Of a stretch of 45,339 bases of DNA, positions 23,479 to 40,975 are shown one piece after another. Each line of letters starts with the position of its first letter. The first letter of the stretch is position 1. Under the pieces are notes generated by a model. It was not told the DNA's origin. It did not search any database and was given only the letters and a program-made list of their open reading frames with translations. This DNA comes from an uncultured Ruminiclostridium sp. Lineage in GTDB: Bacteria > Bacillota > Clostridia > Oscillospirales > Ruminococcaceae. Location: positions 1 through 45,339 of the forward strand of contig CANQXF010000018.1 in the NCBI GenBank assembly GCA_947627695.1. The letters run 5' to 3'. The position numbers and the translations under genes are program-made.

Positions 23479-26400
23479 TCATTCGATATCGAATAATTTT
23501 ATGTTTTTGTAAATGGCGTCACGGATCAGCTTGGCAAGCTCAAGGTTACATTCAGGAGTGTAACCGTATCTGTGCAGGAAATAATCGGGACGGTCGCGTT
23601 TTTCAAAGAGGGGGAAGGCGTCGACTTTTATTATGGGGTCTTCTATGGCTTCCCAACGGAGCCAGTGGAAATAAGTACCGCCGACTGAATCATATCTCCA
23701 ATTTGCCAGTATCAATACTGCGATATCATTAGGCATAAATTCAATTTTATCTAATAAATCCAGCATCTGTGAATAATCATAATTCCAACAATTGGCGTAA
23801 TTCTGTACTCTATATGGTAGCTTCAACATATTCTGAAGATATGAAGCAATTGTCTCTTCATCATTTACTCCATAACCAAATGCATGAGGTCCTCCGAAAA
23901 TATAAACGGTTCCCAAATAGCTATCAGGATTTCCTACAGTTTTCCTAACACCGTTTTTTATATTTACATAAAGTCCTTCTGTGTCGACAAATGTATATGT
24001 CTCCAAATTCGGGTCATAGTGAGTCTTTGGAACACTCATCGTTTCTAAAAGTTCTTCTCTTGTCTTTGCCTTTAATTGTGATGGCAAACTTTCATAATGA
24101 TTGGCAATTCTATGTTTCACATCAGACTCATTAATAAACTTATTATCATCCAAAACTTTTTCGTTTGGCAAAAGCTTTGAATAATCAAATCCTGTTCCTC
24201 TATGCAAATTAGCCGTTCTGATTGTTATTATTTTCGGAATTTTTGATTTAAATTTGTTAACAAACAGATTTTTTGTTAACAAACAGAAAAGAATCTCAGT
24301 CAAGGATATGATTTTTGCATGAGTCTTAGAAAAAATATTTTTTATATTCAAGAAATCTTCTAAATCGAAAGCAAATAAAAGTACATCTTTCTCTGATAGG
24401 GGTATTGGATTGTTTATATCCTTTATTACATATGAAGACATCGGCGGCGTTAATCTCCATATGTTATCAGTTGTAAATAAATATCTGATCTTAACAGTCG
24501 ATTGTTTCAGAAAAGGAGTGATAAATCTGCACATTCTTTCGTCCAGGAAAATGCTAATCTCACCAATATTGTGTTGTATAAAATAATCAAACGGATTGAC
24601 GCCAATAGCCGCCAACTCTGAAACTTGAATTGCAATTGTATTAAAATTGTTTTCCGCTGATGCATTTTTTTTGATAAATTCGTTTGTTTTTATTAAGGCG
24701 CTGCTATAATTGCTGCTCAGCGGATCCAAATAATTTACATAATTATATTGTGTATAGTTTATCGCCGGTGTAGAAAAATCGCAAATTACCATTTTATTCA
24801 TGTCATAAATCACGTTTTTGGCAAACCAGCGGCCTACTTTTGATACGTTCACTTCATAGTGCATTTGGTTTGTTATTTCCGATACAAATTCATTAAATCT
24901 ATTCCTTATAACTGTACACTGTACTAAATATTTTTCAGAGCGACTTAATTGAATGTCTACATTAAATATCCCATTTACAATATATGTAGTCACTTTACAT
25001 ACATCATCGGAAGCAGGAATACTGAATTCTTTAACTACTGCATTATTTGGTATTTTTTCTGAAGATTTATAATCACTATTGTAACTATGCAAGTTTATTC
25101 CCATGTATTCGATTATTTCTTCTGCTAAAAAATAACCTATATTTCTGTTATAGTGATTTGGAACAAACTCAAAAAAATCCGTTGGAGATTTTGCATATTT
25201 TCTTATATCTATCAACTGCACATTTCTGTGCTCCTGAGCAATTTTTTCTGCAATTTTATTTTGCTCTATACGACTGCAATAATCGCTGTCTTTTCCCTTA
25301 GTAGGAAACTCAACATCCGGTACTGTCTGTATAAACAATTTTGTATTATATGACAGATGTTCACATATATATGATAATTCGCTTTCTATATCATCCAGCG
25401 ACACTATGTGCGGATCATAATCGTCGAAAATGCTTTGATCTGTGTTTTCTCTGTTAACAGGTACAGAATAAAAATATGAACTATTTTCTTTAGAAATATA
25501 CTTTTTTATACCATCAATTCCCTGAAGCGTTATTAATACATAGTCTGTACTTTCATTATAAATATCAGTGTCAAAAGTGTAAATATTATTTATAGCTCCC
25601 ACTTTAGACATCCATTCACGCTTTTGGTCTTCAGTTGCACGCAGTGCTACTGCCAAATTTAAAGGACATGGTCGTGGATCTATCTCCGCAAATTTCGCAT
25701 CAGGCAATTTTGGCTGCAAGTATGCCCAGACAGGCCGCAAAGAACAAGAACCATAAACAATGAGCTTGGGAGTTTTGTCAGAAGATGCGACAGTTTCTTT
25801 TTGGACAGAAGCTGTATTGTTTATCCACTCCGGTTTATCAGTTTTATTAAGCTCAGCAGCGACCTCGCCTACCACTTCAATGTCGGGATAACCAAGCTCT
25901 GCATATACCCACTGCTCCACTCCCATACCTAAAATACGGCAGGAGAATACAAGCTGGAGAGCTTTTCCGTCTTTTATCGCATAGCAGCCGATTATGCCGT
26001 GATCGCCGTATTTATCGGTGACGTGTACAACGCCGCTGGTTATTTCCGGGTCGGTAAATATTCTGTCGACTTCTTCCTGAGAGATCCTGTCCTTGGTAAA
26101 ATTGAGTTGGTTGTTGCGGTGTATCATTTCATAGATTCTCACCAGCTTGTCGCTGCAATCCTCTATCAATTCAACGTGGATCTCAGACTGATACAAAAAT
26201 TCCTCGTTTGAGCCGCTTTGTGCTCTGGCAGCAGCTTTTTCCTCAAGGATCTTATACTGCTTTAATCTGGAATGTTCGCTGTCGTCTTTTCCTTCAAAGG
26301 CGGGGTCCTTTACAAGCTCAGGTAGATCCTCAGGCAGAGATACGTTTATACCCCCCCCCGCTGCGAATTTTGCTTCTTCCAGATTGTTCACGTTATCGTC

Positions 26401-26700
26401 GATGAAAAGGCAGTTTACGGGGCGAAGATTCATATCTGAGATTATGTTTTTGACACGCTGTCCCTTGGGAGTCCAGTCGATGGAAGGGAATACAAAATAT
26501 TCCCAAACGCCAAGCTCTTCCAGCTTTGCTTTTGTTTTTTCATAGTCGTTTTTGGAACAGATAGAGTTTACTATTCCTCGGTCGGTGAGGTGCTTTACCA
26601 ACTCGATATTTTCGGGAACAGGCGTTATTTCCCCGTCGGAGATAGTGCCTTTCCAAAAGGTTTCGTCCAGGTCCCAGATGAGCAATTTTATTGTTTCCAT
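23479..26700 (-). CDS. FkbH-like HAD/GNAT protein with SGNH-like C-terminal part (copy 1)
   Basis: This 1073-residue multidomain protein starts with an FkbH-type HAD-IIIC domain (about 1-150): LLIWDLDETFWKG, NSICSKNDYEK, CLFIDDN. A GNAT-like domain follows (about 165-285) with MIHRNNQLNFTK and GVVHVTDKYGDHGIIGCYAI. Known FkbH proteins move a glyceryl group from 1,3-bisphosphoglycerate onto a carrier protein. No carrier gene is visible here, so the acceptor is unknown. The middle (about 300-560) starts LIVYGSCSLRP and contains NHYNRNIGYFLAEE, reminiscent of SGNH-like DUF6270. The C-terminal part has FGGPHAFGYGVNDEET, like the SGNH hydrolase block I but without its usual serine. The first 881 and last 190 bases nearly match copy 2. 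A G9 run lies at 26351-26359. A cell-surface glycan modification role is inferred. Confidence 0.8.
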   Translation of the reverse strand: METIKLLIWDLDETFWKGTISDGEITPVPENIELVKHLTDRGIVNSICSKNDYEKTKAKLEELGVWEYFVFPSIDWTPKGQRVKNIISDMNLRPVNCLFIDDNVNNLEEAKFAAGGGINVSLPEDLPELVKDPAFEGKDDSEHSRLKQYKILEEKAAARAQSGSNEEFLYQSEIHVELIEDCSDKLVRIYEMIHRNNQLNFTKDRISQEEVDRIFTDPEITSGVVHVTDKYGDHGIIGCYAIKDGKALQLVFSCRILGMGVEQWVYAELGYPDIEVVGEVAAELNKTDKPEWINNTASVQKETVASSDKTPKLIVYGSCSLRPVWAYLQPKLPDAKFAEIDPRPCPLNLAVALRATEDQKREWMSKVGAINNIYTFDTDIYNESTDYVLITLQGIDGIKKYISKENSSYFYSVPVNRENTDQSIFDDYDPHIVSLDDIESELSYICEHLSYNTKLFIQTVPDVEFPTKGKDSDYCSRIEQNKIAEKIAQEHRNVQLIDIRKYAKSPTDFFEFVPNHYNRNIGYFLAEEIIEYMGINLHSYNSDYKSSEKIPNNAVVKEFSIPASDDVCKVTTYIVNGIFNVDIQLSRSEKYLVQCTVIRNRFNEFVSEITNQMHYEVNVSKVGRWFAKNVIYDMNKMVICDFSTPAINYTQYNYVNYLDPLSSNYSSALIKTNEFIKKNASAENNFNTIAIQVSELAAIGVNPFDYFIQHNIGEISIFLDERMCRFITPFLKQSTVKIRYLFTTDNIWRLTPPMSSYVIKDINNPIPLSEKDVLLFAFDLEDFLNIKNIFSKTHAKIISLTEILFCLLTKNLFVNKFKSKIPKIITIRTANLHRGTGFDYSKLLPNEKVLDDNKFINESDVKHRIANHYESLPSQLKAKTREELLETMSVPKTHYDPNLETYTFVDTEGLYVNIKNGVRKTVGNPDSYLGTVYIFGGPHAFGYGVNDEETIASYLQNMLKLPYRVQNYANCWNYDYSQMLDLLDKIEFMPNDIAVLILANWRYDSVGGTYFHWLRWEAIEDPIIKVDAFPLFEKRDRPDYFLHRYGYTPECNLELAKLIRDAIYKNIKLFDIE
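25820..26700 (-). repeat. 881-bp direct repeat, 5' end of fkbH-like copy 1
   Basis: This segment is almost identical to 31576-32456, the start of the second fkbH-like gene. Both include the G9 tract. The similarity stops abruptly after the codons for PEWIN. The two 3' ends (23479-23668 and 29241-29430) are also nearly identical. Confidence 0.9.
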
Positions 26701-26713
26701 TCGTATTCTCCTT

Positions 26714-28012
26714 TTATTTATTCAAACAATTTATCTGCACTTCAAGAATAACAGTATCCTCTGAGGCTGTAAGGGAGTGGGTTATGCCTTTGTCTATCGT
26801 GTAGGTGTCACCGGGGAATGCATCGTGATTCCTTCCGTTTATCCGTATCACCGCCTTGCCGCTGAGGACTGTCCATACGGTGCGGTTGGTAGTGTGGACT
26901 TTTTCCTTTATCTCGCTGTTTTTCTTTACGGTTTTCTTTTTGGTGACGGCTTTGTTCCCAGTTTCGTCCACCGAAACATTGAGCACGGTGTAATCTCCCC
27001 ACTCACGCTCCTCATACATCGGGCGAATATCCATATTTTCAACATATTTCTTTATGTAGGAGCTTTGCTCCTTGTCCGCCACAAGTATTCCGTCAGGTCC
27101 TGCCGCCACTATCATATCCTTTGCGCCCATTACAACTATGGGTATCTCAAGCTCGTTTATCACGTGGGTGTTTATGCAGTCATCACTTGCTATCGCAAAG
27201 CCGTAAAGAGGATCCATTACCTCGGTGATGGTGTTCCAGGTGCCCAGATCCTTCCATTCCCCGTCATAAGGTATCACCGCAACGCTGTCCGATTTTTCAA
27301 GCACAGCGTAGTCAAAGCTGGTCTTTTCAAAGGAAGAATAATTATTTACAACGTCTGTATAACTTCCCGACGGAACGGTTTTTCTCACTATGTCCAGCAT
27401 ATAAGACAGCTTGAAGGCAAAAACTCCGCAGTTCCAAAGTCCGCCCATATCTATGAATTTTTGTGCGGCAGCGGAATCTGGTTTTTCCTTGAACTGTGAA
27501 ACAGGGGAAGGCTCAACGTCGGTATTTTCGGGAATTATGTAGCCGTATTTTTCGGAAGGGTATGTAGGCTTTACTCCCATAAGGACAATATCCGCTGCGG
27601 CTGACTGCACCGCTTTATCCAGCTTCAACAGAGTGCGGAAATATTTGCTGTCAACATAAGGGTCAACGGGGAGCACGGTGATGGTCTCGTCGGGGTCGCA
27701 GTGCTTTTCATAGTAGAGATACGCCGCCGCAAGGGCAATTGCGGGGAATGTGTTGCGGCGCTGAGGCTCAACAATTATCGACACCTTGGAACCGAGCTGA
27801 TTTTTTATTGCCTCAACCTGCGTGGCGCTGGTGGCGACGGAAATGTCTGCGTTGGGAACGGCGGAGGAGATCTGATCGTAGACGCGACGGACCATGGAGT
27901 CCACCTCGCCGTTTTCGGTTTTTATCAGCTTGAGAAACTGCTTGGAGCGAACCTCGTTTGAAAGCGGCCAGAGGCGCTTGCCGGAGCCGCCGGAGAGTAA
28001 AACTATCTGCAT
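26714..28012 (-). CDS. manC: Mannose-1-phosphate guanylyltransferase
   Basis: This 432-residue protein has the GT-A-like pyrophosphorylase signature LSGGSGKRLWPLSNEVRSKQ at the start, QRRNTFPAIALAA near residue 84 and FKEKPD near 173. A C-terminal cupin-type segment (about 340-430), with VNRTVWTVLSGK-like sequence and FPGDTYTIDKGITHSL, matches bifunctional ManC/CpsB proteins. It makes GDP-mannose from mannose-1-phosphate and GTP for the polysaccharide cluster and may also act as mannose-6-phosphate isomerase. It lies 13 bp before fkbH-like copy 1 and 16 bp after the decayed GDP-fucose synthase gene, so it was once part of a GDP-sugar operon. The ribosome binding site is AAGGAA. Confidence 0.93.
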   Translation of the reverse strand: MQIVLLSGGSGKRLWPLSNEVRSKQFLKLIKTENGEVDSMVRRVYDQISSAVPNADISVATSATQVEAIKNQLGSKVSIIVEPQRRNTFPAIALAAAYLYYEKHCDPDETITVLPVDPYVDSKYFRTLLKLDKAVQSAAADIVLMGVKPTYPSEKYGYIIPENTDVEPSPVSQFKEKPDSAAAQKFIDMGGLWNCGVFAFKLSYMLDIVRKTVPSGSYTDVVNNYSSFEKTSFDYAVLEKSDSVAVIPYDGEWKDLGTWNTITEVMDPLYGFAIASDDCINTHVINELEIPIVVMGAKDMIVAAGPDGILVADKEQSSYIKKYVENMDIRPMYEEREWGDYTVLNVSVDETGNKAVTKKKTVKKNSEIKEKVHTTNRTVWTVLSGKAVIRINGRNHDAFPGDTYTIDKGITHSLTASEDTVILEVQINCLNK

Positions 28013-28028: not shown

Positions 28029-28900
28029 TTAAGTGACAAGTAGGTCCTTGTCGTTAATATCTTCCAAAAAACAATTGTAAGTCAGTTTCAATCCGTCTTC
28101 AATGGTTGTTTTGGGTTTTCACACCAAAGAGTTGAGTTTGGAACTGTCTACAAGCTTTCTGAACAGTCCTTCGGGTTTAGTGGGATCGGTCACTATTTCT
28201 CCTTCATAACCGACAGCCTTTTTTTACCATTTCAACTATCTGTAAAATGGTGAAATCTTGTCCGTATCCTAAATCTACGCCTGAGTATTTTTCCATATAT
28301 ACAAGCAGGCGTCTGCTATATCATCAACAAACAGCAGTTCATGATATGCGTTACCGGTTTGTTACTTTATCCAGGTGATTGACCTTGGCAGAATGGCATT
28401 TTCGTATTATCGCCGGAATAATGTGCGACCTGTTTATGCTTAAATTATCATTGTAGCCACAAAAATTACAAGGCATTATGCTGATATAATCAGCACTGTA
28501 CTATTCTTTATAAAATCTGCAAGCCTTCTGTCCAGCTATTTTTGCTAAGGCATAAACTTTATTTGTAGGCTCGAGCGAACCTGTATAAACATATCCCAAA
28601 TTATTGGCTGAGTAGCTTTACATGGATAAATACATGGAGAGCCAAAAACAACAATTTTTTACATTGTTTTTATAAACTTAAGAAATAATATTGCACTGTA
28701 TTTGCCAATTATCCATAAGAAATTTATCCGGAGATTTTATATTTGCTCCTATTCCACCTACCTTTGCGGCTGTCAGAAAAACATATTCCGGCTTCTCATA
28801 ATCGAAAAACAACGCAACATCAAAAGCGCTAATTTCTCAAAAATCCTGCCTTTTATGTATGTGTATCCCCAAGCGGTAAAATTACGCACAAGAGAGGCCC
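28029..28900 (-). pseudogene. fcl: Decayed GDP-L-fucose synthase
   Basis: Fragments of the GDP-L-fucose synthase family can be read in changing frames on the minus strand. From the 5' side they are [20 protein letters not shown], then [109 protein letters not shown], and finally TTIEDGLKLTYNCFLEDIN, with stop at 28029-28031. Several in-frame stops and frame changes interrupt it (for example VYAL-to-YKE-stop, and LNSLV-stop), and the N-terminal Rossmann glycine motif is not found. It is too damaged for sequencing error alone. No intact gmd (GDP-mannose 4,6-dehydratase) is in the window. Confidence 0.85.
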
Positions 28901-29240
28901 TACCAGACCAAAGGTGTCTGCTTTCATGTTGTTATATTCGGCACCGAAGAATTCGCAGTTGTCTTACATTATGATGCGTTTTCAGCGCACATCTGCGCTT
29001 TATTGAGTCAAGGTCATTGGTATTTCCCAGAAGATTTGTGAGGCAGACAATCCATATGTTTCAGCTATTGCAATCATCAACTTATGTACATAAATGTTCA
29101 GAGCGCCCTTGTCAATGTCAGTAAAGCGCCAATTTTAATCCAATCTGATACAGAAAAAACATTTGGAGCAATCGATATCCCGTATTTCATCAACCTTCGA
29201 AAAACTGGCAATTTTCGAAAGATTATATAATAAAGTAAAA
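28901..29240 (-). pseudogene. Degraded, unidentified sequence upstream of fcl remnant
   Basis: No intact gene is visible in this 340-bp stretch. Short minus-strand fragments such as NCEFFGAEYNNMKADTFGLV and NLLGNTNDLDSIKRRCALKT look protein-like but are interrupted by stops. It may be the remains of another sugar gene lost together with fcl. I could not name it. Confidence 0.4.
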
Positions 29241-32200
29241 TTATTCGATATCGAATAATTTTATGTTTTTGTAAATGGCGTCGCAGATCAGTTTGGCAAG
29301 TTCAAGGTTACATTCGGGGGTGTAGCCGTACCTGTGCAGGAAATAATCAGGACGGTCGCGTTTTTCAAAGAGGGGGAAGGCATCGACTTTTATTATGGGG
29401 GGTTCTATAGCTTCCCAGCGGAGCCAGTGGTAATATTGATAATCAAAAATATCAGTCATCCAATTTGCCATAATAAACACAGCTATATCATTTGAACTAA
29501 AATCAATTTTATCCATTAAATTCAATGCATGGGTATAGTCATAGTCCCAACAGTTAGCATAATTTTGTACTCGATATGGTAATTTCAGTATATTTTGAAG
29601 ATAAGATGCTATTGTTTCCTCATCTTTGACGCCATAACCTAACGCATGCGGACCGCCAAAGATATAAATTGTGCCTATATAGCTTTCAGGATTTCCGGTA
29701 GTTTTACGTATTCCGTTCTGTATATTCATATGTTCTTCAGCCATGTCAGCAAATCTTCTAAAATGCACCTTATTATCAAAAAGGGTGTGAGGGACTTTCA
29801 TTAATTTTATGAGTTCCTCTTTAGGTATTCTTCGAAGCTGAGGGGGAAGCAATTCATAACTATTCGTTATTCTTTTTATTACATCTGTTTCATTAATAAA
29901 ATTGTTGTCATCTAAAATTTTTTCATTTGGTGTCAGTTTGGAATAATCAAACGCCTCGTTTCTACGTAAATTAGCAGTTCGTACCGTAATTATTTTTGGA
30001 ATTTTGTTTTTAAATCTGTCGACAAATAAATACTTTGTCAACATACAAGACAACACATATGTTATTGTGTAAATTTTGGCATTTGTTCCGGAAAACAATT
30101 TGTGTATGTTTTTAAAATTATCATAGTCAAAGGCATATAACACCACATCTTTTTTGCCTAACGGCAACGGATTATTTATATCATTTATATTATAATATTC
30201 CGTTTCAAATCCAAATAAATTAATGTTGTCGGTGGTAAACATATATCTGACTTTTACATTTGATTTTTTAATAAACGGCATTATAATTTTTCCAACTCTT
30301 TCGTCAATGAAAATATTGATCTCATCAATGCCTTGCTTTGCAAAAAAATCAAACGGATCACACCCGACAGCAGACAATTCAGATATTTGATTTACAATTG
30401 TGGTATAAACAGTATCTGCATGAATATTTCGATTTATAAATTCTTCTATTTCAGCCGTTGCATCTATACATGATGTATCTTCTAAATATTTAAAATAATT
30501 ATATTTTGTGTAGTTGATTGGCGATGTAAAAAATTCGCAAATCTGCTTTTTTGTCGTTGCATCATAAATAACTGCCTTCGCTCGCCAACAGCCTGCTCTT
30601 AACACATTCACTTTAAATTGCTTCTGATTTGTAATATCTGATATAAACTCATTAAGTCTGTTACGAATAACCAGTAGTTTAACCATATATTTTTCAGGGC
30701 AGTCAAACTGGATATCTGTTATAAATTGTCCGTTGATTATATTTGTTATAATATTGCAAGAATCGTCTGTTCCACGGATAGTGAATTTCTGTACCACGGC
30801 ATTATCAGGAATTGTATCCTTCTGCTTGTCCGTTCTGCCGGTTGATTTTACGCCCACGTAATTCAATATTTCTTCAGCAAGATAAAATCCTATATTTCTG
30901 TTATAATGGTTTGGAGCAGAATCAGAAAAATCAGTCGGCGATTTTGCATATTTTCTTATATCGATTAAATGAACATTTTTATATTTTGAAGCAATTTTTT
31001 CTACAAGCTCATTATGTTCCTTGCATAGAGTGTAAACATAATCTTTTCCTTTTTGCGGAAACTCCACCTCAGGCAAGGTTTGTATTAATAAAACAGTATT
31101 CGCCGAAAGATGCTCGCAAATGAAAGATAATTCCTCTTCTATGTCATCTGTTGACACCGGGGTCGACGTGTATTCTTCAAAAAAGCTCTCATCTGTATCG
31201 GTAGCTTTTATGGAAACAGAATAAAAATACAGTCCGTTATATTTGGAAACGTATTTTTTGATCCTATCCATATTTTGCAGTGTAAATAAAACATAGTTCG
31301 TTTTTTCACTATAAATATCCTTGTCGAATGTATATATATTGTTTATTGTACTTACTCTCTTCATCCACTCCTGCTTCTGCTCATCAGTAGCACGCAATGC
31401 TACTGCTAAATTCAAAGGACATGGAAGAGGATCAATATTTGCAAATTTAATGTTCGGTAAACATGGTTGTAAATAAGCATATACAGGTCTTATGGCACAT
31501 GTACCATATATTATCATTGTAATGAAAGATTTTTGTTCTGCCTCTGCATTGCTTTTAAAGGTTATAGATGATCGATTTATCCACTCCGGTTTATCGGTTT
31601 TATTAAGCTGAGTGGCGACCTCACCTACCACTTCAATATCGGGATAACCAAGCTCTGCGTATACCCACTGTTCCACTCCCATACCTAAAATACGGCAGGA
31701 AAATACAAGTTGAAGCGCTTTTCCGTCTTTTATCGCATAGCAGCCGATTATTCCGTGATCGCCGTATTTATCGGTGACGTGTACAACGCCGCTGGTTATT
31801 TCAGAGTCGGTAAATATTCTGTCGACTTCCTCCTGAGAGATCCTGTCCTTGGTAAAGTTGAGCTGATTGTTGCGGTGTATCATTTCATAGATCCTCACCA
31901 GCTTATCGCTGCAATCCTCTATCAATTCAACGTGGATCTCAGACTGATACAAAAACTCCTCGTTTGAGCCGCTTTGTGCTCTGGCAGCAGCTTTTTCCTC
32001 AAGGATCTTATACTGCTTTAATCTGGAATGCTCGCTGTCGTCTTTTCCTTCAAAGGCAGGGTCCTTTACAAGCTCAGGTAAATCCTCAGGCAGAGATACG
32101 TTTATACCCCCCCCCGCTGCGAATTTTGCTTCTTCCAGATTGTTCACGTTATCGTCGATGAAAAGGCAGTTTACGGGGCGAAGATTCATATCTGAGATTA

Positions 32201-32456
32201 TGTTTTTGACACGCTGTCCCTTGGGAGTCCAGTCGATGGAAGGGAATACAAAATATTCCCAAACGCCAAGTTCTTCCAGCTTTGCCTTTGTTTTTTCATA
32301 GTCGTTTTTGGAACAGATCGAGTTTACTATCCCACGGTCGGTGAGGCGCTTTACCAACTCGATATTTTCGGGAACAGGCGTTATTTCCCCGTCGGAAAGA
32401 GTTCCTTTCCAGAAGGTTTCGTCCAGATCCCAGATCAAAAGCTTGATGGTGTCCAT
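29241..32456 (-). CDS. FkbH-like HAD/GNAT protein with SGNH-like C-terminal part (copy 2)
   Basis: This 1071-residue paralogue of the protein at 23479-26700 has the same layout. The HAD-IIIC domain has WDLDETFWKG and CLFIDDN. The GNAT-like part is followed by MIIYGTCAIRP and NHYNRNIGFYLAEE, and the C-terminal SGNH-like block is FGGPHALGYGVKDEET. The first ~293 residues are nearly identical to copy 1, and the last ~60 are nearly identical. Everything between has diverged while keeping the domain order and length. A G9 tract occurs at the same place (32107-32115). The ribosome binding site is GGAG, 5 bp before the ATG. It sits between the Asn-synthetase-like fusion and the fcl remnant in the polysaccharide cluster. 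The divergent part may decide substrate or acceptor. Confidence 0.8.
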   Translation of the reverse strand: MDTIKLLIWDLDETFWKGTLSDGEITPVPENIELVKRLTDRGIVNSICSKNDYEKTKAKLEELGVWEYFVFPSIDWTPKGQRVKNIISDMNLRPVNCLFIDDNVNNLEEAKFAAGGGINVSLPEDLPELVKDPAFEGKDDSEHSRLKQYKILEEKAAARAQSGSNEEFLYQSEIHVELIEDCSDKLVRIYEMIHRNNQLNFTKDRISQEEVDRIFTDSEITSGVVHVTDKYGDHGIIGCYAIKDGKALQLVFSCRILGMGVEQWVYAELGYPDIEVVGEVATQLNKTDKPEWINRSSITFKSNAEAEQKSFITMIIYGTCAIRPVYAYLQPCLPNIKFANIDPLPCPLNLAVALRATDEQKQEWMKRVSTINNIYTFDKDIYSEKTNYVLFTLQNMDRIKKYVSKYNGLYFYSVSIKATDTDESFFEEYTSTPVSTDDIEEELSFICEHLSANTVLLIQTLPEVEFPQKGKDYVYTLCKEHNELVEKIASKYKNVHLIDIRKYAKSPTDFSDSAPNHYNRNIGFYLAEEILNYVGVKSTGRTDKQKDTIPDNAVVQKFTIRGTDDSCNIITNIINGQFITDIQFDCPEKYMVKLLVIRNRLNEFISDITNQKQFKVNVLRAGCWRAKAVIYDATTKKQICEFFTSPINYTKYNYFKYLEDTSCIDATAEIEEFINRNIHADTVYTTIVNQISELSAVGCDPFDFFAKQGIDEINIFIDERVGKIIMPFIKKSNVKVRYMFTTDNINLFGFETEYYNINDINNPLPLGKKDVVLYAFDYDNFKNIHKLFSGTNAKIYTITYVLSCMLTKYLFVDRFKNKIPKIITVRTANLRRNEAFDYSKLTPNEKILDDNNFINETDVIKRITNSYELLPPQLRRIPKEELIKLMKVPHTLFDNKVHFRRFADMAEEHMNIQNGIRKTTGNPESYIGTIYIFGGPHALGYGVKDEETIASYLQNILKLPYRVQNYANCWDYDYTHALNLMDKIDFSSNDIAVFIMANWMTDIFDYQYYHWLRWEAIEPPIIKVDAFPLFEKRDRPDYFLHRYGYTPECNLELAKLICDAIYKNIKLFDIE
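31576..32456 (-). repeat. 881-bp direct repeat, 5' end of fkbH-like copy 2
   Basis: Partner of 25820-26700 in the same orientation, about 5.76 kb away. Recombination between the two would delete manC, the fcl remnant and one fkbH-like gene, or make a chimera. Confidence 0.9.
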
Positions 32457-32555: not shown

Positions 32556-35500
32556 TTACATTGTACAGAAAAACTTCAGATCCTCAGATGTTATAACGTA
32601 AGTAAACTTCTGTCCCTTATATTCACCCGTATGATATTTTATGCCGCTTTTGTCCAGAATGGTCAACATCTCATTTATTGTTGCCTGCTCACCATTTCTG
32701 TTTGAATCATCAACAAAAATCACAAAGCTTTTTGCAAGGCAGTCAGGCAATACATTTAAAATATCCACTCTTGAATATTTTTTCGCTTTCCCTCCGAAAG
32801 GTGCATCTATGCATATAAGGTCAAATTTTTTCCCTTCTAACAATGTTGATAATCCCTCATAAGCGCATACTTCGTCATCATCTTTATAAGTCCCGTTATA
32901 AGTGATCTGCAGCTGACATACTTCTACATTTTGCGGAATAACGTTGGATTTTTCATAAAAGCTTATCCATTCAGAATCATGTTCAACAACCATATCCGAA
33001 GCGGCAGGGTTTGACAATGCGTATTGCGAGATCATCTTTGTAGTCTGACCGAGTCCCAACTCCAGAATGTTTTGCGGACGCCATTCATCCAATACACGAT
33101 ACAAAGCATATAAAAATGGATAACCTGCCGCCCATCTGCCGGGAGAAAATTTCTTGTCCTTAAGCCAATCTGAATTGGAAATAGTATTATTAAATATCGC
33201 TGACCACAATACCTCGCTTGATAATCTTTCAGTGGTATGACTGTTTGTTTTCATATTTTCGATTTTTTTATCAAGATTATTTAAAGTATTTTGCTGATTA
33301 GCCTGAGATGATCTAACCCCCTCTATTATTTTTTCGGTATTTTTTACTGAATTATCCTCTTGTTTTGATGGACCAACATATTGCTTTCGTATGTCAAACG
33401 GCGTCCATTCAATTTCAAACTCAACGATTTCTCCGTCTTCTACCTTTTTTGTGAATTTGAAAAACTTGTCATGCCATATTGAACGAGTATCATCAAATAT
33501 CGCTTTACCGTTACAAGTAAACCTGTTATAATCCAACCAGGCAGCTACCCTGTTTCCACTTGTATCTCGCAGATCCAAAGAACGTAAAACGACGCTTAAG
33601 GTTCCTGATTTGACACACTTCAGCGTGAAGCTTAATCTGCCGGCTTTAGAACAAAGGATATGCCCAACACCTTTTTCGTCGCAAAGAAAACCCGGCGTTC
33701 TGCCTTCGGCTTTTTTATCGCTTAATTCTATAATATACACGTCATTTTCTGCCGAACCGATGTTTTTGATGTCGATCCTCGACGTGGCATAATAATTTAC
33801 CAAAGGATTTTGAATACAGAAATATCCACTTTCGCTGTCTGCAACTTCAAAGATATATTGAGCGGATGTTTCATTCATCAAAGTTGGATTCAGAGAAATG
33901 TCATTCAGCACTTTGCATATTCCGAGCACCGCATATGCATCCTGTAAAGGGTGGTATTTCCTGCTGCATGAAACATCTGCGATATAGTTATATACATCTT
34001 CATTGTAATACTTCAGGAATGTTGATTTTGTTTCATCGGAAAGAAACGCCTTTTTGATTTTTGAAATAAGGGCGTCTGCTGAAATCTTCTCCTGCTGTTT
34101 CATCTCTCTGGGCTTCAGTTTTATTGTAAGCCCTGAATTGCTGTTATCGTTCGGCTTTAAATAAGGAAAGGTTTTATTTATGGTTTTTGCCATTTCCAAG
34201 ATCTGCGGCAACATACTCCTGTTTCCCTCAAATTTAAATTCAAGAAGCTCAGGGCAATACCTGTCATATATAACAGCATAAATCAACTGTTCATATACAT
34301 TCCCTTTGAATGCCGCTTTAATTTTACTAAGTCCAATATCACACAATGGCGGTATAGACAAAACATTAGCATAATAATTTTCCGCAACTGCTTTGCCAAA
34401 ATGATTTCTGTTGATCGTCTCACGGTACAAAGCAGTTTTTGTTAAAAGCTCGGAATAAGCTATCCTGTTTCCGTAGTGACCAAATTTTTCTTTTATCTGT
34501 TCATATCCATTGGACAGCATGCTCTCAACTAACGGTTCATTATAATATGAAGAGGCATGATATGAACGAAGTCTCCGAATTGCTTTCCTAATATAATTTT
34601 TTTCATTTTCAAACTGACCTGAGTGTCCTACTATCAGTTCCCCACCTGAGCCTGAAAACAGATATCTCGGCTTTTTCACTCTGCTCGTTTTAAAATAAAA
34701 TTGTTTGTGAAACAAAGCTTTCAAATACCAGGAAATATTAAATGCATCTTCATAACTGTAATTGTCAGCTTCTTGAGCAATTGCATCGTCGTTATTCAAA
34801 GAAAATCCAAAGCGTTCCGCGATTTGTGAAGCTATTTCAAAATCCTCACTATGAGTATAAAGACTGTCGTCAGACGAATGGACTTTTATTTTACTCAGAT
34901 CAATTCCTGATTTCACAACAAGCAGAAAGGCAGTCCGAGAATCAAATCCTCCGCTTAAATCAACTATTATATCTTCTCCGTTGTCACAAAGACCCTTAAT
35001 CAATTTCGTCCACTTATGATACCAGGTATCCAGCAACCTGATTCCTTCCTCAGAATCAATATCTACCGTATTTTCCTTATAATCAGTGAGTTTTGTTGAA
35101 ACAGACTTATCAGAAATATTGATTATTATTTGAGCGCTTCTGTCTACCAAGGATATTTCATTTACAGCAGTATCATTATAAGCTACCGAACACAAGTCTA
35201 TTGTCAAAAAATAATCCGCATATGCTTTATTAAACGTTATCTTTCTTCTTGTCTTTACGTAATCCAGTAAGTAGACGAAGGAATTACTAAGAGCAAAATA
35301 ATCTCCGTCTTTGTAAATATAGATTCCGAAACAACCGACAAAATCCTGCTTTATGATGATCTGATCATCACAGCGCTTTATATAAACGTAAGCACCTGTG
35401 CCGTCAGGTTCAGCGTCCCCGAGATAATTCAGATCATCGGTTATAACTCCGTCTGTTATGCAAAAGCCGTATATTTCGCTTGTCACCTCATCCAATCGTT

Positions 35501-35561
35501 CAGAATCTATTATAAAGAACTCCTTTTTCGGGTCGAAATTATTTTTTGACAGGTCTGACAT
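32556..35561 (-). CDS. Asparagine-synthetase-like ATPase fused to a methyltransferase-like domain
   Basis: The 1001-residue fusion begins with a glutamine-amidotransferase-like fold (about 1-150) that lacks the N-terminal catalytic cysteine. An asparagine-synthetase-type PP-loop domain follows, with IIVDLSGGFDSRTAF near residues 197-211 and HSEDFEIASQIAERFGF after it. A probable beta-sandwich (about 590-745) comes next, then a coiled coil (about 755-785). The last ~200 residues carry NILELGLGQTTKMISQY near 830 and FDLICIDAPFGG near 920, the pattern of a Rossmann SAM-dependent methyltransferase. Ammonia from glutamine cannot be released without the cysteine, so amidation or another ATP-dependent ligation using a different donor is more likely. 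The start follows AAGGAG. It lies in the surface-glycan cluster, so modification of a sugar acid such as glucuronate is possible but inferred. Confidence 0.8.
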   Translation of the reverse strand: MSDLSKNNFDPKKEFFIIDSERLDEVTSEIYGFCITDGVITDDLNYLGDAEPDGTGAYVYIKRCDDQIIIKQDFVGCFGIYIYKDGDYFALSNSFVYLLDYVKTRRKITFNKAYADYFLTIDLCSVAYNDTAVNEISLVDRSAQIIINISDKSVSTKLTDYKENTVDIDSEEGIRLLDTWYHKWTKLIKGLCDNGEDIIVDLSGGFDSRTAFLLVVKSGIDLSKIKVHSSDDSLYTHSEDFEIASQIAERFGFSLNNDDAIAQEADNYSYEDAFNISWYLKALFHKQFYFKTSRVKKPRYLFSGSGGELIVGHSGQFENEKNYIRKAIRRLRSYHASSYYNEPLVESMLSNGYEQIKEKFGHYGNRIAYSELLTKTALYRETINRNHFGKAVAENYYANVLSIPPLCDIGLSKIKAAFKGNVYEQLIYAVIYDRYCPELLEFKFEGNRSMLPQILEMAKTINKTFPYLKPNDNSNSGLTIKLKPREMKQQEKISADALISKIKKAFLSDETKSTFLKYYNEDVYNYIADVSCSRKYHPLQDAYAVLGICKVLNDISLNPTLMNETSAQYIFEVADSESGYFCIQNPLVNYYATSRIDIKNIGSAENDVYIIELSDKKAEGRTPGFLCDEKGVGHILCSKAGRLSFTLKCVKSGTLSVVLRSLDLRDTSGNRVAAWLDYNRFTCNGKAIFDDTRSIWHDKFFKFTKKVEDGEIVEFEIEWTPFDIRKQYVGPSKQEDNSVKNTEKIIEGVRSSQANQQNTLNNLDKKIENMKTNSHTTERLSSEVLWSAIFNNTISNSDWLKDKKFSPGRWAAGYPFLYALYRVLDEWRPQNILELGLGQTTKMISQYALSNPAASDMVVEHDSEWISFYEKSNVIPQNVEVCQLQITYNGTYKDDDEVCAYEGLSTLLEGKKFDLICIDAPFGGKAKKYSRVDILNVLPDCLAKSFVIFVDDSNRNGEQATINEMLTILDKSGIKYHTGEYKGQKFTYVITSEDLKFFCTM

Positions 35562-35595: not shown

Positions 35596-38500
35596 TCACA
35601 AATATTTTTCCAAGACCCATTTTCCGGTAGGCTGACCGTTGCTTTGGATAAACATTCGTGCGTCCTTTCCTTCACTCTTGGAAAAGAAAGTGATATAAGC
35701 CCTGTTGGATGACAGCTTAACTATCTGTAAAATTCCTTGATTTGCAGGCAAGGAAGAGGGTTTAAGTTCACCTGATTCAACAATAAGAATATGCTTGTTG
35801 GGCGTCATATTATATACTGATTCTATTGACGCTCCTTTTTGCAAACCTATTTTCGACAAAGATGTAATTATCTTCATATCAGATTGTTGAGCTTTAATTT
35901 TCCTGATCTGCTGTTCAGCGTCTTTCAGTTTTTGCATCAGAACTTTGTTTTGCTTTTCCATTTTTAGGTTCTTTATATAAAGGATCTGCGTTTGCGAAAC
36001 AAACATAGGGTCATTCATAATACAATTATTGATTATGTTCAGGCCAAATTCTGAATCCGCCCAATTAATTATTTTTTTCCACTGAATATCATTCCTGTTT
36101 CTATCGACATTGCTCTTCCACAAAGCAGTTTCCTGAGAGCCCTGGACATATTTCAGATTTTTGAAATTTGAAACACAAACTGTGGGAACGCCACAAATGC
36201 ACTCATTTATTTTCAGCCATAGGTCGTCTGCGTGTAGGCAGGTCTTTTTTATAGTTTCCATATCAAATAATTCCTTGCCGAATATTCCGGACGGATATAA
36301 TGCGCCTGCTACCCCGGTAGCAAGAAGTTGCATGGACTCCTGCAGCTTTATGCCGTCGTATTCCATTATCCACTCGTTGTATGGAAGGATTTTACCGTTT
36401 TCGTCAACAGAAATAAGATGAGTGCGAATAGCCGACACTGCTTTAGGATAAAGAAGATATCCGATAAACAACTCGCCTATTGTTGTTTCAGGATACAAAA
36501 GATCATCATCTGCTGTTATTATGATAGCATCAGGAAATTTTTGCATTGTATAGTAATATTTATTGTGTGGACAAAGGTTTTCATCGCACCATAACAGTTC
36601 CAGCTTCTCATCATTTACAAGCTGCATTATATCAGCAGGAAGATCAGCTTCTTTTCCGGGGAATTCACATTCAGTAAGGCATAAAACGATTCGGTCTGCC
36701 GGCAATTTTTGATTCAGCAGGGAATCCACTACCTGAGAAACTCCGTCTATTCGTGCAGGATATGAGGTCAGAGATACGATCTTTTCCGTATCATAAGCCT
36801 TTACAAGCGTTTCATATTCTACTTCTTTAAGTACACGGTATTTGGGGTATAACTGTGGATTTAAATTTTCCTCGCTCACATCATCAAACATTTCACGGTT
36901 TAAATATTCGTGTGCCAACTCATAAAATTTTTTTGCGATCTCGTCGTGAATATCAATAATATTATGTTCTAATGCGAACGCAAAATTATCCACTACAAAA
37001 TAAATTATTGAATTTTCGATCTCATCTTCATATGAAAGCTTCTGTGCCTGCTCAACGGCGCTGTTTACTGCGGTAATAACATTAAGAAGCTTTTTGTGTT
37101 TTTCGTCTGTTATTGAACCGGAAAGCCCGCGATTATAATGAAGAAGCTCGTCTTTCAGATAAGATATCCTTTCAGCCTTGGCAACGCTTACTGCAGCGAA
37201 AGTAATATCGTTGTTTGAAGATATCTCCTCAAATTTAAGCCCATGTTTTTTTACAAAATCCGACCTATACAATTTATTCCATGGTGTAGGATTGACAACG
37301 GTCATAATACGGTCGGGGCAATCCATATAATTAAACGTTTCCTTGTCAGAATCCAAAAATTCCGTATGAATTCCAACTCTGTGAGAATATACGTTTTGCG
37401 CATCTGTCTGAGTAAAATTAAACGCAACGATATCGGCATCTGTTTCGATTGCTCTCGCCACTGTCTTTTCCAGAAGCTCGGCATCAAATACATCGTCGCC
37501 GTCAAGAAAAATCATGTATTCGCCATTTGCCATACCTATGCCCGTATTCCGAGCTGCTCCGGCTCCTGCATTTTCTTGCCGAACGATTTTTATTCTTTGA
37601 TCGAATGAACGATAATCTTCCAGAATATCCGCCGTATGATCCGTTGAACCGTCGTCTACGCATATTATCTCAATATTTTCAAGAGTCTGAAAAACAACAG
37701 TGTCCATGCTTCTTCTGAGATACGGCTCCAGATTAAACATAGGCATTATTACGGAAACCAACGGTGCTGACGTGTTATCGATCTCCTGAAGTTCATTCAT
37801 AATTTCAACCATTTCAAAATACTGGTCTTTATTATAAAATGCGCTCTCAGGCATATCCAGAATATCCAACGTTCTGAAGTTACGGTGTTTCAGCTGCTGA
37901 CGAACCAATCTTTTAAACGAGCCTGTAAAACTATGCATTGTAAATAATGAAAAATCTAACGCCCAATTTACAAAGCTCTGTTTGAATGAAGGATATGTGC
38001 CTCTTTCCATAAGGAACTGTTTAAGGCAATAAAGGGCATCATAATAACACGACGTACATAATTCAAATGCTTTGGACATACTTCTTTCATGACCTATTCT
38101 ATGATGCACAAATATCTTATCTATTGTTGTAATTTTTTCTGCTGCGGAAAGAGCAGAAAAAGTAAACGCCATGTCGTTGCAAACGGGTATACTCTGAAAC
38201 TCGATCCTGTTCTCCTCAACAAATGAACGCTTGTACAGCTTATCCCAAGCCGTACAGCTGGTCATTGTAAAAATATTGTCCGCACAGTCATGAGATGAAA
38301 AAGGACGATGCTCAGGCATTACTTCAAGCTTAAGCGTCCACGGACATTCGTGGAACTGCTTTGTCTGTTCGTCAAACTGGTCGCATCTGAAAGCGCATAT
38401 CTGGGAATCCGTCTCTTTAATGGCCGTATATGCCGCTTCCAGCATATCAGGCTCAAAAAAGTCGTCTGCGTCAAGGAAAGAAATATATTCTCCTTCTGCA

Positions 38501-39729
38501 AGCTTCATACCTGCATTACGGCTTTCGCCCGCATTGGAATGTTCTTTATCAACAATAATAATTCTGTCATCACGTAACTCATATTCCTTGAGGATATCAG
38601 CGGTGCTGTCTGTGGAGCCGTCGTTCACACAGATTATTTGAATTTCCTGAAGTGTCTGTCTGCATACGCTGTCCAGGCACTGACGAATGTACTTTTCTCC
38701 GTTATATACGGGTATAACGACGGAGACCACGGCCTGACCCATTATCCTTTCCAGACGCTTGTACTCATGATCATACAAAAAATAGGACGGATCGTTATTA
38801 AGAATATCCAGCTTTTCAAAATATTCTTCTCTGCATTTTTGTTTTACTTCTCTGCTCAATTCCTGATCAAGCGTGTCAATATTCCAAAGACTGAAATTCA
38901 GCGCCCAGTTTACAAAGCTGTGCCTGAAAATATCATACGTCCCGTCGGCAATAAGCTGTTCCTTTAACGCCATAAGCGCAAGATAAAAGTTGTCCCATGA
39001 CAATTCACGAGTTACGGATAAAGTGTTGTATGCGTTTATTCTTCTGTGAGCAAAAAGCGTGTTCATTACATAAATGCTTTTTGCTTTGGAATAAAGGTAA
39101 AATACAAAAAACATATCGTTAGAGGTACGTATCTCCTGAAAGCGAGCATTGTTTTCCTCTACGAAATCTCTTCTGAACAGCTTGTCCCACGCCCAGCCGC
39201 AGCCTATGTTGAATATCCTGTCAGGTATATCCATAGCGCCGAACGGATTGATGTCAGGCAGCACGTCATCTCTTATGCTGTAATCGCAGGGTACAAATTT
39301 CTGCTCCTGCTCATCATAGAAATCGGATCTGAAAACAACTATATCCGCGTCCTCGACCTTTGCGGCATAGTACGCCTTTTTCAGCATATCGGGTTCAAAA
39401 AAATCATCTGAATCCAGAATGGACAGATACTCGCCCTTAGCTTCCTGCAAGCCCTTGTTGCGTGCTGCTCCGGCTCCTGCGTGCTCCTGTCTGATTATCC
39501 TTATCCTGCTGTCCTTTAACTGATACTCTTCCAGTATTTGCAGTGATGAATCAGTTGAACCGTCATCAACACAAATAATTTCAATATTTTTGAGTGTTTG
39601 TCCTATAACACTGTCCAGGCACTGTCTCAGATATGCTTCCACGTTATATACGGCAATTATGACTGATACCATCGGCGAATCGTTTGCGACGGGTCTTGAC
39701 GTATTTGTGTCGATAGATTTTTTGTTCAT
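35596..39729 (-). CDS. Giant glycosyltransferase with four catalytic domains
   Basis: The start chosen is ATG at 39729, preceded by AGAGAGG. A further upstream ATG (39825) would overlap ugd and lacks family sequence. The 1377-residue protein has three GT2 (GT-A) domains. They begin VSVIIAVYNVEAYLRQCLDS near residue 20, VVSVVIPVYNGEKYIRQC near 330 and VSVIMPMFNLEPYLRRSM near 655. Each has its acidic triad: LDSDDFFEP, LDADDFFEP and LDGDDVFDA. A fourth, different transferase-like domain starts KIVSLTSYPARIDGV near 985 and has IIITADDDLLYP. A coiled coil (about 1260-1290) and a small C-terminal beta domain follow. It may assemble a whole repeat unit of the polysaccharide. It lies between ugd and the Asn-synthetase-like fusion. 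Confidence 0.88.
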   Translation of the reverse strand: MNKKSIDTNTSRPVANDSPMVSVIIAVYNVEAYLRQCLDSVIGQTLKNIEIICVDDGSTDSSLQILEEYQLKDSRIRIIRQEHAGAGAARNKGLQEAKGEYLSILDSDDFFEPDMLKKAYYAAKVEDADIVVFRSDFYDEQEQKFVPCDYSIRDDVLPDINPFGAMDIPDRIFNIGCGWAWDKLFRRDFVEENNARFQEIRTSNDMFFVFYLYSKAKSIYVMNTLFAHRRINAYNTLSVTRELSWDNFYLALMALKEQLIADGTYDIFRHSFVNWALNFSLWNIDTLDQELSREVKQKCREEYFEKLDILNNDPSYFLYDHEYKRLERIMGQAVVSVVIPVYNGEKYIRQCLDSVCRQTLQEIQIICVNDGSTDSTADILKEYELRDDRIIIVDKEHSNAGESRNAGMKLAEGEYISFLDADDFFEPDMLEAAYTAIKETDSQICAFRCDQFDEQTKQFHECPWTLKLEVMPEHRPFSSHDCADNIFTMTSCTAWDKLYKRSFVEENRIEFQSIPVCNDMAFTFSALSAAEKITTIDKIFVHHRIGHERSMSKAFELCTSCYYDALYCLKQFLMERGTYPSFKQSFVNWALDFSLFTMHSFTGSFKRLVRQQLKHRNFRTLDILDMPESAFYNKDQYFEMVEIMNELQEIDNTSAPLVSVIMPMFNLEPYLRRSMDTVVFQTLENIEIICVDDGSTDHTADILEDYRSFDQRIKIVRQENAGAGAARNTGIGMANGEYMIFLDGDDVFDAELLEKTVARAIETDADIVAFNFTQTDAQNVYSHRVGIHTEFLDSDKETFNYMDCPDRIMTVVNPTPWNKLYRSDFVKKHGLKFEEISSNNDITFAAVSVAKAERISYLKDELLHYNRGLSGSITDEKHKKLLNVITAVNSAVEQAQKLSYEDEIENSIIYFVVDNFAFALEHNIIDIHDEIAKKFYELAHEYLNREMFDDVSEENLNPQLYPKYRVLKEVEYETLVKAYDTEKIVSLTSYPARIDGVSQVVDSLLNQKLPADRIVLCLTECEFPGKEADLPADIMQLVNDEKLELLWCDENLCPHNKYYYTMQKFPDAIIITADDDLLYPETTIGELFIGYLLYPKAVSAIRTHLISVDENGKILPYNEWIMEYDGIKLQESMQLLATGVAGALYPSGIFGKELFDMETIKKTCLHADDLWLKINECICGVPTVCVSNFKNLKYVQGSQETALWKSNVDRNRNDIQWKKIINWADSEFGLNIINNCIMNDPMFVSQTQILYIKNLKMEKQNKVLMQKLKDAEQQIRKIKAQQSDMKIITSLSKIGLQKGASIESVYNMTPNKHILIVESGELKPSSLPANQGILQIVKLSSNRAYITFFSKSEGKDARMFIQSNGQPTGKWVLEKYL

Positions 39730-39760
39730 AACTGATACCTCTCTGTAATTATTTGAATTT

Positions 39761-40975
39761 TCAATCTCTTTTAAAAATGTCTTTCGTGTACACTTTTTCA
39801 GCGACATCGTCCAGACAGCTGTCATATCTGTTTGCGATTATTATATCGCAGACCTGTTTGAATTTTAAAATGTCGTTTATTATCGGCGTATCTTCAAATA
39901 AAGCGCCGTCTTCAAGCGTCGGCTCATAAACAACCAGCTTTGCTCCCGCCGCTTTAAGACGCTTCATAATGCCCTGTACCGAGCTGTGACGGAAATTATC
40001 GCTGTTGCTCTTCATTGTAAGTCTGAATATTCCCACCACAGGCGGTTTATCCGACGACGCTTTGCCGTATCCCGCTTTTTCAAGTACGCGGCGGGCAATA
40101 AAATCCTTTCTCGTGCGGTTGCTCTCAACTATCGCTCCGATAAGGCTTTCCGGAACGTCACGATAGTTTGCAAGCAGCTGCTTGGTGTCCTTCGGCAGGC
40201 AATACCCGCCGTAGCCGAAGCTGGGATTGTTGTAAAAATCCCCTATCCTAGGGTCAAGACAGACTCCAGATATTATTTGTCTGCTGTCAAGCCCTTTCAT
40301 TTCCGCATATGTATCCAGCTCGTTGAAATAACTTACTCTGAGAGCAAGATATGTATTGGCAAATAATTTTACCGCTTCCGCTTCAGTTGAACCCATATGA
40401 AGAACAGGAATATTTTCCTTTACTGCACCTTCCCGCATAAGCACCGAATACTTTTCCGCCGCTTTTACAAGGTCAGGATTCGCCGTGTCATAGCCGATTA
40501 TTATCCTTGACGGATAAAGGTTATCGTACAAAGCCTTGGATTCTCTCAGAAATTCAGGACTGAACATTATTTTTTCATACCCTGTTTTTTCCCTAAGCTC
40601 CTGCGTATATCCGACAGGAATAGTAGATTTGATAACTATGACAGCATTTTTATTGCAGCCCAGTATTTTTTCTACCGTGTCTTCAATATACGATGTGTCA
40701 AAATAATTTTTTTCATGATCATAATTTGTCGGAACAGCAATAATGATCATCTCTGCATCAGAATAAGCCGCCTCAGCATCAACTGTCGCAATCAGATTTA
40801 ATTCCTTTTCTTTAAAATATTTTTCGATCTCCTCATCTGCAATAGGGGATCTTCTCTGATTTACCATATTGACCTTATCCTCGATAACATCAACTGCGGT
40901 AACCTCGTTGTTCTGTGCGAGCAGAGTCGCTATTGATAATCCCACATATCCAAGGCCAGCAACAGCAATTTTCAT
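39761..40975 (-). CDS. ugd: UDP-glucose 6-dehydrogenase
   Basis: This 404-residue nucleotide-sugar dehydrogenase oxidises UDP-glucose to UDP-glucuronate with two NAD+. It has the N-terminal [10 protein letters not shown] nucleotide-binding motif, [28 protein letters not shown] and the catalytic cysteine in [15 protein letters not shown] near residue 259. [17 protein letters not shown] in the C-terminal domain is also typical. The short 404-residue form is common in Firmicutes capsule loci. It has an AAAGGAG ribosome binding site and supplies uronic acid for the cluster. A 211-bp gap upstream (40976-41186) holds no gene. Confidence 0.93.

Follow-up and report, generated by a model that had tools for sequence, protein, structure and literature searches.

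Slipped-strand contingency loci are best known from host-adapted Campylobacter, Neisseria and Haemophilus, and the classic species in which mononucleotide tracts drive phase variation often have no mismatch repair. For Campylobacter jejuni NCTC11168, PMC4965091 counts 29 poly-G/poly-C loci of at least seven bases, and the colony data given there comprise 257 cases of G8, 214 of G9, 431 of G10, 77 of G11 and 9 of G12. The cgtB gene of the same species carries an on/off poly-G tract (PMC6437147), and genes with hypermutable polyG tracts are also described in Campylobacter phages (Sorensen 2021, as cited in PMC11868660). Within the Clostridia, Clostridioides difficile varies phase by invertible promoters, according to a 2025 review (PMC11868660).

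The stretch of DNA analysed here, called the window in the following, comprises 45,339 nucleotides (contig C18) of a 2.70 Mb genome in 67 contigs. This genome resembles C. jejuni in the number of its tracts (36 of at least seven and 26 of at least eight bases), their in-frame position and surface-glycan targets, the mixture of on and off states, the occurrence of some tracts at 3' ends and the similar lengths, with a peak at G9-G10 here. It differs from C. jejuni in that the host belongs to the gut Clostridia and possesses MutS1; 3'-end tracts make up five of the 20 tracts of at least nine G here, and PMC4965091 gives a single one among the 29 C. jejuni loci. The likeness extends to Campylobacter phages, but here the phage tracts lie in N6-adenine methyltransferase-like genes. 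C. difficile provides a precedent for phase variation in Clostridia, yet the mechanism there is DNA inversion and the one proposed here is homopolymer slippage. A literature search on homopolymer phase variation in gut Firmicutes/Clostridia and in prokaryotes at large, on prophage methyltransferases and on FkbH genes, judged by titles and the start of abstracts and covering few subscription journals, returned no report of poly-G phase variation in Clostridia, and we therefore rate the host as unexpected. Poly-G contingency loci are thus known as a kind, whereas their Clostridia host is new, and the data are best read as a Campylobacter-type set of poly-G contingency loci in a gut Clostridia lineage.

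The fkbH genes and their G9 tracts

All features of the window that concern us here lie on the minus strand:

23479..26700, minus strand: fkbH copy 1, 1073 aa, with an FkbH/HAD-IIIC domain at residues 3-269 and the rest without Pfam or NCBIfam match
26351..26359, minus strand: G9 tract of fkbH copy 1, codons 114-117, frame open (ON)
26714..28012, minus strand: mannose-1-phosphate guanylyltransferase-like gene (NTP_transferase plus cupin), adjoining fkbH copy 1 upstream
28030..29230, minus strand: apparently decayed gene between the fkbH units, without a long open frame on its strand
29241..32456, minus strand: fkbH copy 2, 1071 aa, laid out as copy 1, the first 855 bases 95% identical
32107..32115, minus strand: G9 tract of fkbH copy 2, at the site equivalent to copy 1, frame open (ON)
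32556..35561, minus strand: 1001-aa glycan-cluster protein without Pfam match
35596..39825, minus strand: 1409-aa protein with three family-2 glycosyltransferase stretches
39761..40975, minus strand: gene of the UDP-glucose/GDP-mannose dehydrogenase family

Pieces of the decayed gene resemble, by eye, motifs that we take to be those of a GDP-sugar epimerase/fucose synthase.

The initial annotation had described two identical G9 runs in the codons for AAGGGI, within the HAD domain of two proteins of about 1070 residues, and this description is accurate: C9 on the plus strand (G9 on the minus strand) occupies exactly 26351-26359 and 32107-32115, in frame, and AAGGGI is written GCA GCG GGG GGG GGT ATA at codons 113-118 of both open reading frames. 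Its expectation that slippage would truncate each protein at about residue 120 is right as well, because the alternative frames meet a stop codon 0 or 6 codons beyond the tract. No other run of at least eight G occurs in the window. When the window was shuffled 100 times with its dinucleotides preserved, two shuffles reached the same number of 8-mer matches or more, and the excess of G runs, judged within the window alone, is modest. Since GGG accounts for only 13% of the glycine codons in the 19 window genes, GGG GGG GGT is not the default spelling of Gly-Gly-Gly here; in the same genes, three of the 45 GG dipeptides are written GGGGGG, two of these three being the fkbH tracts.

A third copy lies outside the window:

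L061:15585-18821, contig C10: fkbH copy 3, with a G9 tract at G000:C10:15926-15934

In all three copies, the repeat lies within the gene, is in frame and is long enough for hypermutability, and the FkbH-domain (TIGR01686) scores of 165.2, 164.6 and 164.0 bits exceed the curated cut-off of 146.65. The assumption of two linked copies with four on/off states has to be extended in consequence; the two copies in the window are indeed linked, a third lies on C10, and three copies would allow eight states, provided that all of them are independent.

Replication slippage would add or remove one G of the tract, and the resulting frame change would end the protein some 117-123 residues in, ahead of most of the FkbH domain and of everything beyond it; a later slip would restore the frame, and the cells of one population would differ in making each FkbH enzyme. 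The FkbH protein of macrolide synthesis serves in acyl (glyceryl) loading. By analogy, the surface glycan made by the neighbouring glycosyltransferases would receive a small acyl group, perhaps glyceryl, which the enzymes encoded here would load or transfer. We infer that switching is active inside this strain and that it has a glycan phenotype.

The first 855 bases are 94-95% identical among the three fkbH copies, and, compared in bins of 40 codons, the paralogues are 87-100% identical over codons 1-280, after which most bins show 48-79% identity. The fall is immediate in both pairs involving copy 2 and gradual, over about 80 codons (85%, 79%, 62%), between copy 1 and the copy on C10; in the final bin, copies 1 and 2 are back at 92%. 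The three paralogues are mosaics of a near-identical start and a divergent remainder, a pattern that makes gene conversion or domain exchange among them likely. The identical G9 in three copies does not, for this reason, amount to three independent observations; it may have been inherited or converted and not separately kept.

The fkbH tract in relatives

Nine orthologous fkbH sites, at 80% protein identity or more, were inspected as DNA. Six carry G9 (the three own copies, G028, G035 and L080), and the others carry G10 with a broken frame (L095), G5 (G017) or no tract (G094). In G035, G9 is retained despite a DNA identity of about 80% in the first 855 bases, in an open frame of 585 aa. The genes of G017 and G094 are open over 1076 and 1082 aa, which weakens the view that protein function dictates the tract; the loop encoded by the tract accepts in-frame changes of length (GGG, G-D, D-N). 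In G094, the fkbH gene has a C9 run on its coding strand at about codon 308 (L083:6673-6681), possibly a tract gained independently.

Alleles of different length and frame thus exist between relatives, each species being represented by one genome. In L095 (CANQCB010000029.1), the G10 at the fkbH site breaks the frame at the tract, and the protein P0129 (957 aa) begins with the other frame of L095 and is the remainder of this gene, both lying on a 14693-bp contig. The second case is P0001, a protein of 129 aa that aligns with 93% of the 125-residue query at 91% identity and represents two member sequences on four contigs (the longest 65105 bp). Its C-terminal residues, GGVSTLPCQRSYPSW, equal the shifted frame of L080 (GGVSTLPCQRSYQSW), whereas L080's own G9 gene is in frame. 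We take P0128 (955 aa, normal frame) as the rest of the P0001 gene, a pairing based on the equal contig count (four) and the common longest contig (65105), not on DNA. Two lineages therefore carry fkbH alleles that lose the frame at the tract and stay open beyond it, as judged from relatives known largely from metagenomes, whose assembly may misstate the length of a homopolymer. Because relatives carry the gene broken exactly at the tract, the fkbH tract looks like a real switch. Full-length relatives occur as well, with AAGGGI or STGGGI at this position (P0122, P0124), among seven sequences examined out of the 120 listed of 1829 matches. The survey of truncated proteins covered 17 sequences among the 120 listed of 158 matches, and within these 17 a shifted-frame tail was matched for P0001 alone; many of the others lie on short contigs and were maybe cut by contig ends.

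Long G runs across the genome

Run lengths were derived from 8-, 7- and 6-mer counts on both strands. The genome contains 142 runs of six G, ten of seven, six of eight, twelve of nine and eight of ten, with none of eleven or more (36 of at least seven, 26 of at least eight and 20 of at least nine in total). Markov models of order 1-3, trained on 246 kb of own sequence from which the tracts had been removed, predict 3.3-5.2 runs of at least nine versus the 20 observed, and 77-107 runs of at least seven versus 36; if the decay from G6 to G7 is extrapolated, 0.05 runs of nine are expected versus twelve found. Long tracts are hence well above chance, the runs of six and seven G fall below model expectation, and a second peak stands at nine and ten, as in maintained contingency tracts.

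This distribution bears on the possibility that the fkbH tract merely encodes a Gly-rich stretch and arose by accidental mutation, spreading by duplication without any selected switching. The near-identity of the first 855 bases among the three copies would fit such an origin, as would the two relatives that manage without a long tract and the tolerance of the loop to in-frame length changes; a passive run would, however, leave unexplained why G9-G10 runs outnumber G7-G8 runs in the genome and often lie in glycan genes, as well as the tract-broken alleles whose remainder is open, and we consider it unlikely.

Across the survey, G9 occurs in 34 of 60 genomes, with counts that vary widely, and within the genus in 19 of 36, the own genome included, 17 of the 36 having none. 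The genus members G005 and G019 have long G runs, some of them at or near contig starts, which look like artefacts. G019, 97% complete, has by far the most G9 matches in the genus (184) and no MutS1 match near the cut-off; its long G runs are possibly artefacts.

A missing MutS was considered as the cause of tract instability and rejected, because this genome has a MutS1 match that passes the cut-off (in the survey, a match was found in 60 of 60 genomes, 57 of them over the cut-off). With MutS1 present, any instability of the tracts would have to occur despite it. We count this against switching, together with the uniform G9 of all three own fkbH copies, which show no variation in this genome, the open genes of G017 and G094 without a long tract and the 17 genus genomes without G9.

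Inventory of the tracts

The 20 own tracts of at least nine G divide into seven interior tracts with an open frame, six interior tracts with a broken frame, five near a 3' end and two without gene assignment:

Three fkbH copies: interior, frame open
C22:1429: interior, frame open, BadF-type ATPase
C27:2568: interior, frame open, short-chain dehydrogenase
C6:87648: interior, frame open, acyltransferase-like; VanT models matched far below cut-off
C9:7607: interior, frame open, acyltransferase/PGA_cap/GDSL protein
C10:10334: interior, frame broken, 937-aa protein without family match, then a citrate-lyase-ligase domain in another frame
C11:44512 (L068:6513-6522): interior, frame broken, G10 in a small leader peptide of double-glycine type
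C16:15964-15972 (L067:7965-7973): interior, frame broken, G9 in a prophage-type N6-adenine methyltransferase
C20:7399-7407 (L062): interior, frame broken, G9 in a prophage-type N6-adenine methyltransferase, at the same site as in C16
C23:16536: interior, frame broken, glycosyltransferase-11 protein, then a weak GDSL match below cut-off
C27:7468: interior, frame broken, DUF6270 protein, then 288 open codons without family match
C10:11785 (L061:11785-11794): near 3' end, cytidylyltransferase
C10:12573 (L061:12573-12582): near 3' end, cytidylyltransferase
C22:10280: near 3' end, hexapeptide acetyltransferase
C25:19663: near 3' end, ATP-grasp protein
C53:2073 (L071:2073-2081): near 3' end, GDP-mannose dehydratase
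C20:788 and C20:5386: without gene assignment

In 18 of 18 assigned tracts the G strand is the coding strand, a score for which only open reading frames on the G strand were considered. Most of the assignable G9/G10 runs lie in genes of glycan synthesis or acyltransferases, to which the leader peptide and the prophage DNA methyltransferases are added; in the leader-type peptide, the G10 sits at what is presumably the double-glycine motif. Six of the 20 tracts apparently divide a gene between frames. The two halves at C20:7399 are consecutive on one Pfam model (6-63 and 62-146); for the methyltransferase of C16, the Pfam search covered the first half. The pairs at C10:10334, C23 and C27:7468 are presumably single genes, given the open continuation in another frame. 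A G8 at L062:8283-8290 (G000:C20) lies near the start of a C5-cytosine methyltransferase-like gene (weak, below cut-off), the remainder of which is open in another frame.

Sequencing or assembly errors at homopolymers might in principle have produced the broken alleles of a gene that is always on, and the metagenomic origin of most relatives as well as the artefact-like runs of G005 and G019 lend this some weight; P0001, however, represents two member sequences on four contigs, the interrupted genes of the own genome include G9 as well as G10 tracts, and errors would not explain the excess of runs, so that we give this explanation little credence. That the broken alleles are permanent pseudogenes, a decay to which the apparently decayed gene between the fkbH units might point, is improbable in view of the 955 (P0128) and 957 (P0129) open codons after the break and its position at the tract in L095, whereas the decayed neighbour has no comparable open frame.

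The slipped-strand on/off switch proposed initially draws its support from the two tract-broken relatives, the G9-G10 excess and the six apparently interrupted genes. The two G9 tracts of the window are, in our judgement, very probably contingency loci for slipped-strand phase variation in fkbH-type glycan-modification genes, and they belong to a group of about 20 G9-G10 tracts that are spread over the genome and lie in glycan genes, in a leader peptide and in methyltransferases of prophages.

Length differences at other sites and in phages

Two further orthologous tracts differ between genomes. At the leader-peptide tract, whose flanks are 86.8% identical, the own genome has G10 with a broken frame and G028 has G9 with an open one; an acyltransferase tract is open in the own genome (G000) and in G094, but G028 has it out of frame. 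Phage contigs related to the prophage methyltransferases were scanned at the site that follows the DW motif, and 15 of the 75 rows, a few of which are spurious or repeat the same contig, show 7-9 G; most of these tracts are in frame, L239 and L317 being exceptions. Over about 2,050 bases, L239 and L240 differ by three SNPs and a G8/G9 difference in the methyltransferase, while the sole differences between L238 and L240 are one end base and the length of a second tract (C9/C10); L238 and L239 are 96.9% identical over a longer common stretch. The variation among L238-L240 comes nearest to a length change within a population, albeit in phages and from assemblies. Viral contigs, searched directly, contained no match to the fkbH tract.

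Tracts at gene ends

To the tracts near 3' ends we applied a wider definition (at least eight G, upstream open reading frame of at least 150 codons), which yielded 15 tracts from this genome and from the sequence retrieved for four relatives. In 12 of them one frame has its stop no more than five bases away from the start of the following gene, and in six of these 12 it is the current frame that does so; the three exceptions are L063, L066 and L161. G9-G10 ends of biosynthetic genes with one frame stopping on the next start were seen at L061:11785-11794, L061:12573-12582, L065:4663-4671 and L071:2073-2081. A comparable case, by its context cj0045, appears in a table footnote of PMC4965091, according to which one tract length would carry translation on into the start of cj0044c.

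The arrangement suggests a translational-coupling switch, in which tract length would decide whether the upstream stop falls on the start codon of the next gene. Because common operon overlaps give a like pattern, we offer the coupling switch as a suggestion. If it is true, a single slip would adjust the expression of an entire nucleotide-sugar operon with no enzyme broken. The most far-reaching reading, a MutS-bearing gut Clostridia lineage with a Campylobacter-like phasome of at least 20 poly-G switches, shared with its prophages and including a recurrent sub-class of gene-end coupling, is put forward tentatively, the odds being somewhat against it.

Implications

Should the contingency-locus reading be true, stochastic variation of surface glycans may extend to gut commensals of the Clostridia, with consequences for phage resistance, for recognition by the immune system and for metagenomics at strain level. 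Many genes in the off state would be labelled as pseudogenes by automatic annotation, or divided in two. The tracts in prophage methyltransferases finally suggest that phages infecting such hosts may switch genes in this way too.
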